Part shown: piece after piece, positions 14,755 to 24,758 of the stretch
Numbering within the stretch: position 1 is the stretch's first letter
How the letters are laid out: every line of letters begins with the position of its first letter
Source of the DNA: Pleurostoma richardsiae
Taxonomy: Eukaryota > Ascomycota > Sordariomycetes > Calosphaeriales > Pleurostomataceae
Reading direction: 5' to 3'
Length of the DNA stretch: 64,000 nt
NCBI GenBank assembly: GCA_030052745.1
Contig: JANBVO010000053.1
Coordinates: forward strand, 1 to 64,000
Notes under the pieces: model-generated
Databases searched by the model: none
Seen by the model: only the letters and a program-made list of their open reading frames with translations
What the model was told of the DNA's origin: nothing
Position numbers and translations under genes: made by a program

Positions 14755-15619
14755 ATGCGCACTGCCCAGTCTTTCGTCGGCCTAGCGATTGCCGTCGCTG
14801 CCGCGTCCGCCACCGCTATTGGCAGTGAAGATGTCGTCTTCACCATGCTGCTGAAGCGCCAAGCGCCTGGCACACCAGCCTACAACTGCCACGATAACTG
14901 CGGTAAGCTCACACCATCTTCTGGACTAGGCTCCGGATAGTTGCTGACATAATAAATTCCAGGCCAGGCCATCATCCAGGCGAGAAACAGCGATGATGTC
15001 TGCAATGACGAGATCTTCTTGACAGACTATGCCAACTGCCTCCAGTGCTCCGGCCCCGACAACGAAGACATCTGGAAGTACTACGGCACGACTCTCAGTG
15101 CCTCCGCCTCCACCTGTGGCTTGTCGACCACGCCACTGTCTGGCGACCAGCCGGACGTCGGCGCTGCCATTGCCGCTGGCTCGAGCACTAGCTCGACCGC
15201 TGCCGCGACCTCGTCCGCGACGGCGGCTCCGGAGACCACTTCTACCTCTGCTGCGGAGGCTACGTCCACAACGGAGGCTGTCGAGACCACCTCCACAGAA
15301 GCTGCTGAGACAACGTCCACGGCAGCTGCTGAGACGACCACGGAGGCAGCGAGCTCGGCTGCCTCGTCGGCCACTGTCGCGACTAGCGCCGTAGTGTCGT
15401 CGAGCGTCACCGTCGCCCTCGGAACTGGAACGGGTGTGCCGACCGCCACCGCAACGGTGAGTCCTTCTCATATCCTTTCCGCATTAGTGATCGTATTGCT
15501 AACTAACACGTCAGACCTCTGGTTTGGTGCAGGTGACTAACGCTGCCAACTCCAACTCTGGCAAGGCTTTCGGCGTGGCGGGCGCCATGGCCTTTGGCGC
15601 TGTGTTCTTCGGCCTGTAA
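14755..15619 (+). CDS. Ser/Thr/Ala-rich cell-surface protein, likely GPI-anchored
   Basis: Exons 14755..14902, 14963..15456 and 15515..15619 give 248 residues with matching phases and consensus donors (GTAAGC, GTGAGT). A signal peptide (MRTAQSFVGLAIAVAAASAT) and a possible KR cleavage site precede a compact Cys-containing domain (YNCHDNCGQAIIQAR, DVCNDEIF, NCLQCSGPDNEDIWKYYG, STCGL). A long Ser/Thr/Ala/Glu linker with TTSTEAAET-type repeats follows, suited to O-mannosylation. The C-terminus (NSNSGKAFGVAGAMAFGAVF) is a hydrophobic tail after small residues, consistent with a GPI signal. The layout is typical of fungal wall proteins. No enzymatic domain is visible. The role may be wall structure or surface interaction; function unknown. 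Confidence 0.8.
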
Positions 15620-16713
15620 TATAGCGGCAGAGACTACTGCTCAACAACGTTGACTGTTTTCAGTCAAGGTGTACTAATAGTAATCCTGTCGGATAATATA
15701 TAAACTGTTCTGAGGAGGAAGCATCTCTTGTTTGCAGTAAGGCTATTGTACCAGCCGTTTTGAACTAAGAGATAGAAATATCCACAAGCCCTCAAACCTC
15801 AAGTTTGCAGGAACGAAGAAGAAAGGTGAAATGAAATGCTTATTGGCGCTCCTGCGTACCTGGGCCGAGTGGCCACTAGTACTCGCGACACTTAGGACTC
15901 TTCAAATCTGGCTCCATTTCCGTCTCTCTTTCGTGCAATGAGTTTGGCTTGTTGACGACTTCGCCAATTCCACAAGGCCAGACTTGCGAGAGAAAGCTAT
16001 GGAAGCGCAGTTTCAGTTGGTAGGGCTCCTAGGCTGTGCGCTGTGCAGTGTGCACCATGCCGCCCCTCGTGTCTCTCGGACAAAGAAGGGCCATAGAGAT
16101 CGCTGTCCGACACGGCCAGGCATCGGCAACAATGGAGATAGGGGAAGGTAAAGAGGGGCATTGTGTGCTGCTGCAGAAGGTCCCACTAAGCGCGGAAAGA
16201 GTTTCTAATTTACCGTGATTATGACGGATTCGTCCTCATTCCAGTGGAAGCCAGCGTTGGCGTATCCAGTTTCGACTATTGTTACTGTCTTACCTTGACT
16301 GATCTCATTGTCTCCTCCCGGTGCAGTGATCACTCATTCATTCTGATGGCTTTGAGTGGTCCTTACGTCTCACTCAGGCGCGTGGAGGAAGTCACAGGTA
16401 CCGGTTTCCGCCACCAGACTCGTGCTGAATGTATGGCTTCTAGTGACAAAGGGTGCAGATTGTGCAAGTTCCTCATTTTGATTGTCTGCAAGGAAGACTG
16501 TAATTAAGACCTGGGCTAATATGGATCACCTTCATATTTTCTGGAGCTTTCGAAATACATAAATATTAAAATATCTTATAAATATTGTGACTGCTGTTTA
16601 GCTGGCGTTGTACTCTTCTCCCTGACAACGAAGAAATCTGAAGGACTACTATAACAAGTTCGTGTACAGACGAGTCACACCTGCTTAAGCCATATAATCA
16701 GCCATTGCATTCA
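15620..16713. other. Intergenic stretch containing repeat copy A
   Basis: Between the surface-protein gene and the broken regulator. No gene is supported. The notable feature is the direct-repeat copy at 16295-16403. Confidence 0.5.
16295..16403. repeat. Diverged direct repeat, copy A
   Basis: Starts TTGACTGATCTCATTGTCTC and ends near CACAGGTACCG. It aligns over its whole length, with few gaps and roughly 80% identity by eye, to 23210-23320 in the same orientation. The two copies bracket the broken regulator/transporter pair. Confidence 0.8.
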
Positions 16714-18113
16714 AGGCACCAGCCCATATGTCAAGTCTGACAATTGATTCCAGAACTCAAGGCCTTCATACTGCTCCTCGCCATGGTTAACTACGGGTTC
16801 CACTAATGCCATATTTGAATTAGTGGCACCCGGATGGAGCTTCGACAAATACCAGTGCTCGATGCCTTGATATGCTTCGGCATACTCAGAGAAAATAGGT
16901 CGCCCGTGGAGGAGAATTCTACATCGAGGAAAACAGAGGCCGCTGGCTGCCTCGGAGAGTTTGTTGAGCTGCTGTAGAGTGTCCGGGAGGTTGTACATGG
17001 TCCGCGCGGTGTCCAAGTCCCACATTGTTCGGCATCTCAGGTGTGTAGGCTCAAGCAACCCATTCTTATCACCATAATTGAAAGGCTCGAATAAGCGGAT
17101 GCGGACTGCGGCGCAATGGGTTTTCAAGAGATCTAAATAAAGACGTCAGTGATTCCTCTGTATGGCAATTGCAAGGCACGTACGATTTGACTTTAGGTGA
17201 TCAGGTAGCTGGTGCACATACGCGTCCAACTCATTTCGAATGGAAGCGACAGCTATAGGGTGAAAGCCCCCGAAGGGCTTTCCGGAAGTGACCTCGATTG
17301 TTTCCCAAAAAGTATCTTTCACCTTTGTTGCGATTCGCTGTATGCATACAAGGTTCACCAGCAATGCGTCAGTGGGATATACTTGGTTCTGGATGAGCTG
17401 ATCACACCAGTAATCAAATTGGGAGATATATCTGAGCCTTGATCGCTTGTTGAGAAGACTGCTGAGTCTAATATAGTGATTGGTGAGTTTTGTATCAGCA
17501 GAAGAAAGGATAGGTTGGAAAGCTCACGTGGACGTTATGTAGTACACGCCCAAGACAGTTCGACGATCATCGCTTGTTTGTTTTGGTTGAGGGGGAAGGT
17601 CAAGACGACAGTCTGGTGTGCAACTTGTTGCCGAAACCAATTCTCAACGGCAGCAGATAGTTTTGGTTCCGGAGGCCGACAAATCAACAATATTGTCTTT
17701 AGCAGGAGCGGTTTGTCCTTATACATGTCGAAGGAATTGTGGCAGGGTATAGGAACGAACGGGAACTGAGGAAGCATGACTGTCATATATTCCTTGAGGA
17801 CTTGATCCGCCTCGGAGAACGAAATTTGAAATCCTGGGATGATGGTAAGCGAGTCATATCGCGATGGAGAGGGTGTTTCGAGGGGCTCTATCGATGGCAC
17901 TGAGGCATAGTCTTGGTACATGGCCGGTGTTGTCGCTGAGGGAATGCCATCGATGGACAACGGCGGGTGCTCAGTCGATCGATCGCTGCGGGCTATACGC
18001 TCTCGATCTGGACTTAGAATGATCATGATGACATCCAGCTTCTGTTCGATGACTTTTGCGTGATTTTGAAGGGGTTCTTCAAGCTTCTCGCAGTTCAGCT
18101 CCCTAGTTAACAT
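16711..18113 (-). pseudogene. Truncated fungal Zn2Cys6-type transcription factor
   Basis: The readable start, LNCEKLEEPLQNHAKVIEQK, resembles the linker after a zinc cluster, and ENWFRQQVAHQTVVL begins the fungal TF middle domain. The sequence then jumps frame to DDRRTVLGVYYITST, a motif that family members carry after roughly another hundred residues. This suggests an internal deletion with frameshift at about 17,560-17,590. Later exons read NKRSRLRYISQFDYW, YPTDALLVNLVCIQRI, then LFEPFNYGDK to a stop at 16711. Introns with normal borders separate them. No CX2CX6C cluster exists in the 166 bp before the divergent transporter, so the DNA-binding domain is gone. An unusual active protein or a mis-sequenced locus cannot be excluded, but three independent defects favour a relic. 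Confidence 0.75.
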
Positions 18114-18278
18114 TGTTGTTTCTCATTCATTGCTCCTTTGACCCCTTAATAGCAACTTATCATTCAATATCCTCGCGCCTGAGTAAGGTCCGTCCTAGAC
18201 CATCCTCTACCGGCCTGAAAACAACATCGCCTTGCTTCCCGCTCGATCCATCCCTCTCGTCTAGACAATACCGTCGAA

Positions 18279-21200
18279 ATGTATGATCAATCTTCATCTG
18301 ACGAAAACAAGACGCCTCCGCGCACAATAGCCATCGACAGTTCACCCTTGAAGTTAGACCGGACCGCGACGTTCAGAGACTACCTGGTCAGAGTTCTCTC
18401 CAGGATAGATGTTGGTTATATACTCACATTCCAGCGCATCTTCACATATGGAAATGCCTGGGACGTCATCGTTTACGCCGCCGATATGCTGGCTGCTGCC
18501 GGAGCTGGACTCACGACGCCCTTGATGTTCGTCCTATTCGGTACGCAGATCAACTCTTTCTTCCTGTAACCATACTTGACTAACATCTACGCAGGTGATT
18601 TTGTCGGTAAATTCAGTGGCTTCGTGAGTGGACAAGTTGATCAGGACCTCGGTGGGTTCGACGATAGTCTTGACCAGCTCTGGTATGCTATTCGCCTCCA
18701 CACCTTCTCTCAGTTATCTAGGAAGTCTATTAACGCGCTATAGCCTCTATGTCTTTACCTTATTTCTTGTGCGTTTCGGTCTCGGCGCTATCCACAAGTT
18801 TGCCTTTCGCATGACTGGGATTCGACTTTCGGCCGCAATCAGACTCCACTACCTCAAGCACCTCTTTGGTCAAAGCATCCATGTGTTAGACTCTCTGCCA
18901 CCGGGTCAAGCCGTCGGCACCATCACGGCTACCAGCAACATCCTCCAGCTTGGCATCTCCGAGAAGCTCGGTATTTTCGACGAGTACAGCTGTCTCATCA
19001 TTGCTGCTCTCATTGTCGCTCTAAAGTAGAACTGGGAATTGGAACTCGTTACATTGTCAGGGTTCGTAGTCATGGTGCTTGCTGTTGGAACCATCTTCCC
19101 ACTTACAGTCAAAGGTCAAGCGTGCCAGGCCAAGTCAGAAGCGCAAGCAGCGACTATCGCCAGCGAAGCGTTTGCGAGCATTCGAATGATAATGGCGTAC
19201 GATGCGCAACATCAAATTGTTCAAAAGGATGGCTTCTTTATTCAAGAGGCAAAGAAGCACGCTCGAGCTACCAGCCCGCTCACATCCCTCCAATTTGCGT
19301 TGACCGTAGGTGATAGGCACATGTCGGGAACCACCAACATACAGAGCTAATTTGTATAGTTTTTTGGTGTCTTCGGCACTGTAGCTGTCACCTTCTGGTA
19401 TGGCACTCTGATCTTTACCAAGAATAGACTGGATAACGTGGGAGTTATCATTGTGTAGGACGACCAACCCTTTTGGAGGCACTCTAGGGACTAACGCACA
19501 TATAGGGTCTTACTCTCCCTAACTACTATTTTCTTTTCACTTGACCGTGTTTCGCCACCTATGCAGGCTATTGGAAAGGCTACGCTGGCCGCCTGCGAGT
19601 TCTTTTCCGTCATCGACACTGCTCCACCTGAGAGAGGCTCGCTCAGAGAGCCCGAAGTCTCGGCAACCAGAGACATTATTTTTGACAAGGTTACCTTTGC
19701 GTACCCAAGCCGACCCGACCTCAAGATCCTCGACCAACTAGACTTGCGAATCAAAGCTAGAAAAATCACCGCAGTCGTTAGTCCATCTGGTTCCGGCAAA
19801 AGTACTATCGTTGCTCTCATTGAGCTGTGGTATACTCGTTCACAGCAGAATGTCATCGCCAAGGCGACACAAAAAAACAATAATCAAAAAAAGAATAACG
19901 TCCAAGGCAGCAATGACAGCGACGTTGAGCTAAGCACGGTTGAGTTGCCAGAGACGAAAACCGCAGTCGAACTACAAGGCACAATCCGGACTCGTGGCTG
20001 TTCGCTAGACGATATCGATGTTAAGTGGTGGCGATCTCAGGTCGGACTTGTTCAACAGGAACCTTTCTTATTCAATGATACCATATACGGGAATGTCGCT
20101 CATGGCTTGATTGGATCTCCTTGGGAGGGAGCGTCGCAGGAACAGAAGAGGCATCTTGTCAAGGATGCATGCCGAGAAGCATTCGCCGATGAGTTCATAG
20201 AGAAACTCCCCCAGGTATGCATTATATTTGTTCAGCAGTAGCGAGATTGACGACCGCTAATCAGTTCCTCAGGCATACGATACAAACGTCGGCGATGGTG
20301 GCGCCAGACTCTCTGGTGGCCAACGCCAACGCATGGCCATCGCCCGGTCCATCATCAAGAAGCCATCTATTCTTATTCTCGATGAAGCCACCAGTGCGAT
20401 CGACGTCCGCGGTGAGCGAATAGTACAGGCCGCCCTCGATAAGGCAGCCAAGGGCCGGACGACAATTGTAATCGCCCACCGACTGGCTACAGTCAAGAAC
20501 GCGGATCGTATTATTGTTCTCAAGAAAGGCATAGTCGTTGAGTCTGGGACACACGAAGGTCTCATCGCCATCAATGACGGCGTCTATGCTGGACTTGTCA
20601 AGGCCCAAGCTCTCTCTCTGGGAGACCCTGCACAAGGAGAGGTCGATGATGATTTTGAGGCTGCTGGGCTTAGTAGCCTGATCTCTGAACAGACTCGAGC
20701 AGGATCTGAGTACGGTGACAACCTCAGCGACATCTATAAAACTGAAGGTGGAAAAAGCCGTGGCTTCTTTACAATTTTGGTCGGTTTTTCTATGAGTCCA
20801 AGACGTACTGGGCTATCATGATTTTCTCCTTGATCACTTCCGGCGCCGCCGGTACAGCACAGCCATTATACGCCTGGCTCTTTTCCAAGTCCATTGATCT
20901 CTTCAAGTACCAAGAGAACCACTCTCGGCTCATGGACGAGGTGGATTTCATGGCTGGTATGTGGACTGTCTTTGCGGCTTCGGCAGGTATTGCCTACTTC
21001 TTGACTTTTGTCTCTTCAGGCCGCGTGGCCTCTTTCATCCGTGCAAAGTACCAGATGCACTACTTCGAGTCACGCATCTTTCAACCAGCGGCGTGCTTTG
21101 ATGAGGATGGCCACTCTCAGGGCACATTATCGTCTCGGGTCAGGGATGACCCGCTGAAACTGGAAGAAATGGTGGGCACCAATATCGCACAGGTCTGCAT

Positions 21201-22464
21201 CGCCGTGAGCAACATCATCGGCGGCATTGCCATGGCCTTTTCCTATAGTTGGAAGCTCACACTTGTGTCGATATGTGCCGTTGTGCCGGTCTGTATCTTC
21301 TCGGGCTATATCCGCTTCCGATACGAGCTCTTGTTCGAGAAGATGAACGATGAGGTCTTCGCAGAGAGCTCCAAATTTGCTTCCGAAGCAATTGGCGCCT
21401 GCCGTACTGTGGCATCCCTCACGCTGGAAGAGACCATTCTAACTCGCTTCGAGAAACTTTGCCGCGACCACGTCCATGCTGCATACAAGATGGCTCGTTG
21501 GGTCAGCATCGTCCTTGGATTCTCTGACAGCGCAACTTTAGCTTGCCAGGCGCTCATATTCTACTACGGTGGCCGACTTCTTGTCCGTGGCGAGATTGGA
21601 ATTATGGGGTTCTTTGTCTGCTTGATGGCCATGATGAATGCTGCTGAAGGATTTGGCCAGAGTTTGAGTTTCGGCCCCAACGTTGCCCAGGCGACCGCAG
21701 CGTCGAATCGCATCCTCGACGCAAGATCATCGCGCTTATTGGAGAAGACTGGGGAGGATGATATTCCAAACGCCGCAGGCGGTATCAAGATTGAGCTTCA
21801 ATGAGGCGGATATTTCAGATGTTGACATTTACACCTACCGCAAGCACCTATCCTTAGTCGCACAAGAACCTGCTCTCTTCCAAGGTCAGATGTCTCGCTG
21901 CCCCCAGCTTTCCTCACATACTAACTCCCGTAGGAACAATTCGAGAAAATATTCTTCTTGATCTTGATTCTAGCAATATCACAGACGGTGAGCTCCATGC
22001 CGCATGTCGTGATGCCTCCATCCACGATTTCGTGGTTTCCCTTCCCGAAGGTTATAATACGGATATTGGACCTCGGGGGATCTCCCTCTTGGGCGGGCAG
22101 AAGCAGCGTCTTTCCATTGCTCGTGCACTTATTCGCAAACCTCAGGTACTCCTTCTCGACGAAGCCACTAGCTCCTTGACTCGGAGAGCGAGAGACTCGT
22201 CCAGGCGGCTTTCGAACGCGCGGCTAAGGACAGAAATATCATTGCAGTTGCGCATCAGCTAGCTACTGTACAGAATACGGATTTGATATTTATGTTGGGC
22301 GAAGGGGTCCGTCTATTAGAGAAGGGAAGCCATTCAGCTTTTGAGGAAGAGAGGCACCTATTACCGAATGGTACGTCTTAAATACCAATCTTCAATTTGC
22401 GTAGGATGAAACAGACGGCTGACAAGAAGGATAGTGCCAAAGTCAGGCTCTTGACCAGGAATGA
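18279..22464 (+). pseudogene. Broken full-size ABCB-type (MDR-like) ABC transporter
   Basis: The layout is TMD1-NBD1-TMD2-NBD2, as in fungal multidrug and secondary-metabolite exporters. The start is MYDQSSSDENKTPPRTIA at 18279, and introns fit at about 18540, 18690, 19305, 19460, 20215, 21885 and 22371. NBD1 keeps [20 protein letters not shown] and IAHRLAT, but its Walker A reads SPSGSGKST. Lesions: in-frame TAG at 19027, where a Tyr-Asn-Trp motif is expected; one base lost near 20785 (VGFSMSP for an expected FFYESKTYW frame); about 80 codons with the NBD2 Walker A deleted at about 21800; one base lost near 22179 (SSLTRR for SSLDSESE); one base lost near 22340. The ancestral end is readable as GTYYRM plus CQSQALDQE and TGA at 22464. 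Five defects make function impossible as read. Confidence 0.88.
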
Positions 22465-23798
22465 TTTTGCCAAGAGAGAGAGACCGAACTACACTCTCGC
22501 TGGTAATGTCGCCTATGGCATGAGCCCATAGCTTCACAGCTCAAGCTCGGGAGCTGAGGCTGAGCTTCCATTCCTTTTCTTTTTGTCCTCCGTTCTTGAA
22601 ATTAAAAAACTTATCATAGCCATCTACCCAGTTTTCTTCTATAATTTATAATCTAGCAAGACTCGCGAATAGATATAGACCATTAACAGCTCGAGCGGGT
22701 GATCTCACTACTAGAAAGGTCATGGATTTATACTGTCCGTAGGACAATCAGGTAGCTACGACAAACTGAGTTTCAACTCGTCTCCTGATTGGTTGACTTT
22801 GGCGGGTCCAAATGACGGCCTACCATTGGCTCGTCGCAAAGTAGGGTCCTGGATAAATGTCCGAGAGCTGTGATACCAAACAGGAGGTATCTCAACCGCG
22901 GGAGAGGCCACATGAAGCAACAGCGATAAAGCACCCGGGAGCAACGGCCGTAGAGCAACCGCCCAGGGACAGAAGCCACAGAAGTGGCCGTAGAAGAGCC
23001 TGGAAACGGGGACACGGAAGCCGCAAGACGTGACGTACCACAGGAAGCGGAGAGCAAAGGCCCGGTAAGAAGGGTCCGGATGCCACAGGAAGGCCGTACT
23101 ATGTAGGAAGACCCGGCCCAGTGATTAAGGGCCCGCCCGGGAGCAAGGGAGGGCCTGGCAGTCATAGGAAGGGTCGTACCTTCGAAAGGTCTAGGAACAA
23201 GTCGTCAGCTTGACTGATCGCATTGTCTCCTCTCGATTCAGTGATCACTCACTCAATTCTGACGGTCTTGTGTGATCCTTCAGGTCTCACTCAGGTACGA
23301 GGAGGTAGTCGCAGGTACCGTCCATTGCGCCATCAAGCGGTGCGGTACGTGGCCGGTACCTTAGGTGAGTCATCTGACGCAGCCACTCAGGTGGCGTGCC
23401 GCGCCCGCCGCCGCCTGCGAGCCACCTGGATCAATCGACGACCGCCGACCGCATCGACCATTCATCATCCTGCCCTGCCTGACCTACCTCACTCACTACC
23501 CACCTAACCTAATGCTTTCCTGGCTGCCTTGACTTCCCTCCCTCTCCTCCACCTCCACTTGACCTACGTGGCCCATCGACGAGCCAGAATCCCGGACTGC
23601 AGACTCCGTCTCCTCGTTTTCACAGTTATCATCTCATCGCCTCTCCCGCCCCACTGCTCATCCGTCTCACCTTCCATGAACGACCGACCGCAGCGCCATC
23701 TTCCGGGCGTAACCTTCCGTGCTACTCGCTCCTGCTCTCGTCTGATGCCGCGATAGCCCGGCCCGCCCGCCCGCGCGCCATCCACATCCGGAGCCGAG
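22465..23798. other. Intergenic stretch with repeat copy B and GC-rich tract
   Basis: The left part is AT-rich. About 22880-23170 is a GC-rich, purine-heavy tract with recurring CCGTAGAG/GGAAGC-like words and no sustained reading frame. Copy B of the direct repeat follows at 23210-23320, then the C/T-rich leader of the next gene. Confidence 0.5.
23210..23320. repeat. Diverged direct repeat, copy B
   Basis: Starts TTGACTGATCGCATTGTCTC, includes CAGTGATCACTCACTCAATT and ends at GCAGGTACCG. It matches copy A at 16295-16403 in direct orientation, 6.9 kb away. Confidence 0.8.
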
Positions 23799-24758
23799 AT
23801 GGTGCGCTCTCATCGGGACAACCTAAGCAGCACCAGCGCCAGCGCCACCAGCCGGCCTCGGACGGACCGCTTCTCCCCACCGGGCCCCGGCGAGTACTAC
23901 TCGCCATCGTCATCGCCTCCGCTGTCTCCACCTCCTCCCTCCCGGCCCCGAACCCGGCGGCGTCCTCGCACCCCGGAGACGCCGCCGACGCCGCCGCCTC
24001 ACGCAACGGGACCAGGACCGGCGCTCTCGCCACCATCACCGTCAGCACCAGCTCATCCGTCATCACCATCATCACCAGCGGCACCACCCATGCCGGCGGC
24101 TGCCGAGGACTACGTCGACGTCTTTCCGGCCTCGGACCTGGAGATCGCCGAGAACGGGCGCCTGGTCAGCCGAGAGGACGTGACGCAGCAGTTGATCCGC
24201 GTGTACGTCGAGGGCCGCGAGCTGTCGGTGCTGCTGGGCCATGCGTCCGCAGAGTGGTGGAACAGCCCCGCCACCCGCGCGCAGCGTGCCTTCGTCAGGG
24301 CCCAGCTGGCCGCCGCGGGCAGGGGGGCGTTTCGGGTCGCGAGGAACGCGCTGGTCGGTGACGGCGGCAGCAGAGTGCCGGCTGACGACTTCGACGACGA
24401 CGGCTTCGAGGATCGTCCGGCGACGGCGGTCGAGGAGAGGTCTGGGTCGCTGGTTGGCTATTATGCGCGCGGGGCGGTCCGAGGGCTTACCGGCGGCGTG
24501 TTCGGGGGCGTGACGCCGACGCCTGCAGCGAGCTCTACGCAGTCGAATCGGCCGTCGGAGGACTTTGCAGATGACGATTTTGACATGGGCATGTTTGACG
24601 CCATCGAGGCGGAAGAGGCCGATGACGATCAGGGTACTAGGAGCGCTAACCAAGACCGCCCCCAGCAGGACGAACCAGCTGCCGGTATGATGTGGGATGT
24701 TGAGGACGACGAGGCGGGGCTGGGGCTCCTCCCTTTTGGAGACAACGATGAATGGTGA
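23799..24758 (+). CDS. Pro-rich/acidic orphan protein, 319 residues
   Basis: Single exon with ATG in the context GAGATGGTG after a pyrimidine-rich leader. Residues 1-105 are Ser/Pro/Thr-rich with Arg runs, likely disordered. Residues about 108-200 (from YVDVFPASDLEIAENGRLVS through EWWNSPATRAQRAFVRAQL) look like a folded helical domain. The C-terminal third is acidic (ADDDFDMGMFDAIEAEEADD) and ends GLLPFGDNDEW. No signal peptide or membrane segment. I do not recognise the family. The even composition and codon use suggest a genuine gene, possibly a nuclear or scaffold protein. Antisense frames here reflect GC bias. Confidence 0.7.
   Translation: MVRSHRDNLSSTSASATSRPRTDRFSPPGPGEYYSPSSSPPLSPPPPSRPRTRRRPRTPETPPTPPPHATGPGPALSPPSPSAPAHPSSPSSPAAPPMPAAAEDYVDVFPASDLEIAENGRLVSREDVTQQLIRVYVEGRELSVLLGHASAEWWNSPATRAQRAFVRAQLAAAGRGAFRVARNALVGDGGSRVPADDFDDDGFEDRPATAVEERSGSLVGYYARGAVRGLTGGVFGGVTPTPAASSTQSNRPSEDFADDDFDMGMFDAIEAEEADDDQGTRSANQDRPQQDEPAAGMMWDVEDDEAGLGLLPFGDNDEW

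Follow-up and report, generated by a model that had tools for sequence, protein, structure and literature searches.

In the part of Kovalchuk and Driessen (2010, PMC2848647) that deals with them, full-size ABC-B transporters are described as extensively amplified in Pezizomycotina, and putative pseudogenes are noted in several fungal ABC groups. The exporter gene studied here has the alternating order of transmembrane (TMD) and nucleotide-binding (NBD) domains, TMD-NBD-TMD-NBD, and the sequence similarity common to full-size fungal ABC-B transporters in the same source. Unlike these, it is broken. It was placed in ABC-B as a whole and not in any subgroup.

The best sequence matches in the PDB were ABCB proteins, namely P-glycoprotein (9nfi) and the a-factor exporter (7qkr). 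The locus was not recognised in the literature, which was searched by subject and not by organism name. The window (the whole stretch of DNA that was analysed, 64,000 nucleotides) is carried by contig C86 (211 kb) of a genome of 39.4 Mb in 136 contigs.

Paralogues and neighbouring genes

The nearest paralogue of the ABC gene in the genome was C1 (52% and 44% for two pieces), followed by C52 (40%, best piece). Over same-strand exon pieces, C1 (pieces within G000:C1:1611447-1615622, locus L025) is 31–62% identical to the ABC pseudogene, and two zinc-cluster regulators, C62 (L026) and C104 (L027), are 28–46% identical to the regulator remnant in the linker, middle and C-terminal regions; because of these distances, lesion sizes are estimates, and some gaps in the regulator could be old differences. 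The aligned exon pieces of C1, which are pieces only and not a full gene model, showed no noticed break, unlike the ABC pseudogene.

The gene arrangement also differs. The ABC pseudogene has a regulator alongside, whereas no regulator relative was found among the open frames in 9.9 kb around the C1 locus. Similarly, no ABC gene relative was found among the open frames in 9.9 kb at each of the C62 and C104 loci.

No near-identical copy of the pair was found in the genome, and the other DNA matches were 66–72% over 140–369 bp. This rules out that the pair arose recently by duplication of a gene from another place in the genome. A 501-bp stretch of the regulator, when searched against the genome, matched only itself. 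Searches of viral_contigs and genome_contigs gave 3 and 14 pattern matches, respectively, with 0 confirmed; these collections are not fungal and hence little informative.

The coding part of the left neighbour ends at about 15620 (read by eye), and the right neighbour is an open frame starting at 23757. The families identified by the profile scan in the neighbourhood were an RNA-recognition motif protein, a complex I 30-kDa subunit, a lactonase-type propeller, CNNM, 2-hydroxyacid dehydrogenase, alcohol dehydrogenase, SIR2, P-type ATPase, tubulin-tyrosine ligase, carboxylesterase and glyoxalase; core biosynthetic enzymes are absent from this list. The closest match of the complex I subunit was a chain of entry 7zm7, which we take to be from Chaetomium thermophilum. 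Together with the shortness of the introns, this match agrees with a filamentous ascomycete as host, perhaps a sordariomycete. A first-pass annotation of this DNA had described the neighbouring genes as intact. For the part of the neighbours that was covered, this holds in two examples: the P-type ATPase is a single, unbroken frame of 1140 codons, and the four domains of the 2-hydroxyacid dehydrogenase lie within one unbroken frame.

The suggestion that a biosynthetic cluster or its substrate had vanished found no support. The core families looked for (polyketide synthase, peptide synthetase, terpene cyclase and prenyltransferase) were absent from the 134 scanned pieces of the window, which holds 187 frames of at least 110 codons, part of them scanned. 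One of 105 scanned open frames of the window matched the copper acquisition factor BIM1-like domain (E 8.1e-10).

Lesions in the exporter and the regulator

The coordinates of the features are collected in Table 1. The lesions of the ABC gene were called by aligning the exon pieces of the C1 paralogue to the window.

Table 1. Positions of the two genes, their lesions and introns, and the bracketing repeat in the window
Feature	Position	Strand	Remark
Left copy of bracketing direct repeat, 110 bp	16294..16403	+	84% identical to 23209-23320
Bracketed segment, 6805 bp	16404..23208		GC 0.496
Zinc-cluster-type regulator remnant (linker, middle and C-terminal parts)	16711..18113	-	Paralogue alignments
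Kept GT-AG intron of regulator	17133..17183	-	Ends checked
Kept GT-AG intron of regulator	17468..17527	-	Ends checked
Full-size ABCB transporter pseudogene	18279..22464	+	TMD1-NBD1-TMD2-NBD2 order
Kept GT-AG introns of ABC gene, first three	18541-18594, 18683-18743, 19306-19359	+	Ends checked
In-frame TAG inside TMD1	19027..19029	+	C1 alignment continues past stop
Kept GT-AG introns of ABC gene, last three	19455-19505, 20215-20272, 21885-21933	+	Ends checked
Frame change somewhere before TMD2	20711..20790 (about)	+	Alignment to C1
Loss of ~60 codons with frame change, NBD2 Walker A region	21764..21823 (about)	+	Versus C1; size estimated
Frame change after NBD2 Walker B region	22164..22190	+	Alignment
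Frame change near C terminus	22330..22352	+	Two frames each match parts of C1 end
Right copy of bracketing direct repeat, 112 bp	23209..23320	+	84% identical to 16294-16403

Five of the six ABC pieces scanned were above the curated Pfam cut-off for ABC_membrane or ABC_tran, and the sixth (19030-19350) reached 27.5 bits against a cut-off of 28. The two ABC transmembrane domains of a full-size transporter were recovered, with PF00664 found in three pieces: the sixth piece just mentioned, 18628-19026 (46.7 bits) and 20746-21801 (146.3 bits). NBD1 was present in the Pfam scan and split over two exon pieces. A second complete nucleotide-binding domain was not found, as NBD2 is without its Walker A region and its frame is altered. 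Compared with C1, one position differs in the Walker A motif of NBD1 and one in the signature motif of NBD2. After the Walker A motif, NBD1 contains a long polar insertion rich in asparagine and lysine (~19830-19990), which is longer in the C1 paralogue at the same place.

With the Walker A region of NBD2 lost and several breaks in the frame, the exporter is not expected to work. Judged from its sequence, 18279-22464 is a remnant of a full-size ABCB transporter and not a working member.

The premature stop is a TAG, and the host looks like a filamentous ascomycete. In the passages of PMC7306014 on stop codons, A-to-I editing in the perithecia of filamentous ascomycetes is reported to convert premature stops of some annotated pseudogenes to tryptophan codons, and UAG to UGG is named for edited normal stop codons. 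It is nevertheless extremely unlikely that the stop is changed in transcripts by such editing, because editing could neither restore the Walker A region nor mend the frame changes.

The two genes lie head to head with 165 bases between their ATGs. Both genes are where the first-pass annotation had placed them, and this distance was given correctly in it. As none of the three regulator pieces matched a Pfam family, the assignment of the regulator rests on the C62 and C104 alignments, in which it resembles zinc-cluster factors outside the zinc cluster. The N-terminal zinc cluster of a Zn2Cys6 transcription factor was not found in the remnant. The CxxCx6C half-motif was present upstream at both paralogue loci searched (C62 and C104); in contrast, it was absent from the stop-to-stop frames of at least 15 residues in 15500-23500, a search that a motif split by an intron would escape. 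A strict pattern of the full zinc cluster also had no match in the window, but as it missed the paralogues too, it is no evidence, and the half-motif was used instead. Relative to C62, the regulator lacks two stretches: an estimated 70–100 codons near 17550-17640, where the frame also changes, and about 48 codons by estimate near 17020-17060, where the frame is kept.

Altogether, five lesions were counted in the ABC gene and three in the regulator with respect to paralogue pieces of the same genome. Some frame changes are near short homopolymers, and small indels could partly be assembly errors. However, errors of assembly or sequencing in genes that work are a very unlikely source of the lesions: the ~60-codon loss over the catalytic region, the missing half-motif and the two further losses in the regulator are atypical of base-calling errors, and the P-type ATPase and 2-hydroxyacid dehydrogenase neighbours are unbroken. 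The earlier claim that both partners carry inactivating changes was borne out by these alignments to paralogues of the same genome.

In total, eight introns have intact GT-AG ends; six of them belong to the ABC gene and two to the regulator. The kept introns rule out a retrocopy; together with the broken frames, they are the features of non-processed pseudogenes. A RIP-inactivated repeat was ruled out for the pair, as both genes had a negative composite RIP index (-0.80 and -0.59) and no near-identical second copy was found. Over the whole bracketed segment, the index was -0.54. This agrees with the previous statement that the lesions are mainly small indels and deletions and not RIP: one is a stop, and the rest are losses or frame changes. 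The index was positive (0.16) in only 1 of the 64 kilobase bins, 15001-16000, which adjoins the pair on the left and lies outside it. GC3 of the pair was 0.56 and 0.54 versus 0.59–0.89 in 11 window frames; the C62 paralogue has 0.52, so the low values are not unique.

Very probably, the locus is a non-processed, decayed pair of a regulator and an ABCB exporter, both inactivated by deletions or small indels and one stop. Long open pieces persist in it, and the remains might have been repurposed, with the TMD2 frame (352 codons) or a regulator fragment still expressed as a truncated protein that has a function, or with the locus acting as a regulatory RNA. We consider this improbable, as a young pseudogene is expected to keep long open pieces and no Rfam match at the gathering threshold was found in 15000-24500.

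The bracketing repeat and the low-GC segment

The pair sits in a low-GC stretch bracketed by a direct repeat, and this observation is new here. The first-pass annotation was right in what it observed but somewhat understated, as it included neither the flanking repeat nor the losses inside the regulator.

The two repeat copies differ by 16 substitutions and 2 gaps (K2P 0.164). Their alignment scored 114 bits, compared with a best value of 23.8 in 60 crude two-base block shuffles. No third place of the repeat was found in the genome with stretches of 301 bp and 1001 bp or with a 24-base pattern allowing up to three mismatches (read backwards as a control, the pattern gave 0 and 0 matches); as the search skips very common words, it could have overlooked weaker relics. 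That the repeat is a structured element was ruled out because its fold was no better than that of shuffles (z -0.75 and +1.00). Directly before the right copy, the intergenic stretch 22870-23208 is purine-biased (65%) and fairly rich in GC, and it contains a weak 24-bp repeat in two copies.

The GC content of the bracketed segment is to be compared with a median of 0.565 in 229 overlapping window segments of 6805 bp, the lowest of which (0.493) starts at 16001. A transposon or the cargo of a DNA transposon was ruled out, as 16250-16750 and 22450-23360 shared no inverted match of 11 bases, the scanned window pieces contained no transposase family and, as stated above, there was no Rfam match; tandem repeats were only short and low-scoring (4 rows).

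Two histories of the segment have to be weighed, and both are compatible with a dead pair. In the first, an ancestral, vertically inherited pair decayed in place, and the repeat has nothing to do with it, being a local duplication of intergenic sequence. We give this close to an even chance. Introns and head-to-head order were kept, and GC is low around paralogues too (0.514 at the C62 locus and 0.523 at the C52 locus). On the other hand, the only places found for the repeat are those that flank the segment, and it is in this segment that the window reaches its lowest GC.

The other history, raised by the repeat at the edges and by the low GC, is an inserted or accessory segment; it is absent from the interpretation in the first-pass annotation. 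That the segment was inserted is a tentative proposal, which we hold to be less likely than not. The repeat and the segment fit an insertion in which a long target was duplicated, or crossover of a circular molecule, and they also fit a local duplication.

Order of events and what the locus may mean

A rough clock was derived from stop codons. In the 4560 scored coding bases of both genes, about 1.6 new stops are expected per 1% neutral substitution. The single stop fits less than about 3% substitution; the probability of at most one stop is 0.04 at 3% and 0.003 at 5%. Half of the repeat divergence is 8%. This suggests a loss of function later than the separation of the two repeat copies. Provided that the repeats were free to drift, the genes would have been under selection for most of the time since the repeats formed. 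The clock assumes neutral repeats, one rate and a transition weight of 2, and it ignores indels. Moreover, the stop count is biased down, since the clock used segments that had been selected for being open frames next to the lesions.

The explanation that we favour for the sequence of events is as follows. A regulator of the zinc-cluster type would once have stood head to head with a full-size ABCB exporter, the two sharing a short upstream region, presumably with shared regulation and a function in export. The pair may have arrived, or have been rearranged here, as a unit in the low-GC 6.8-kb segment. The pair would then have worked for some time before selection on it was lost, which we infer to be the cause of decay, and the regulator would be left without the DNA-binding part that its paralogues keep. 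The scenario in full is somewhat unlikely. In it, a 6.8-kb regulator-exporter unit entered intergenic space and duplicated a target of ~110 bp, by staggered-break fill-in or by a single crossover of a circular molecule; it was long used and later given up, and the bracket would date the arrival and the lesions the loss.

Putative ABC pseudogenes have already been reported in fungal genomes (PMC2848647). As a pair of pseudogenes the locus is ordinary, and its bracket is of modest interest. If the bracket marks an insertion, one locus would hold two clocks, for the arrival and for the loss of a regulator-exporter pair. It would then be a testable case of gene turnover without signatures of RIP or of a transposon.
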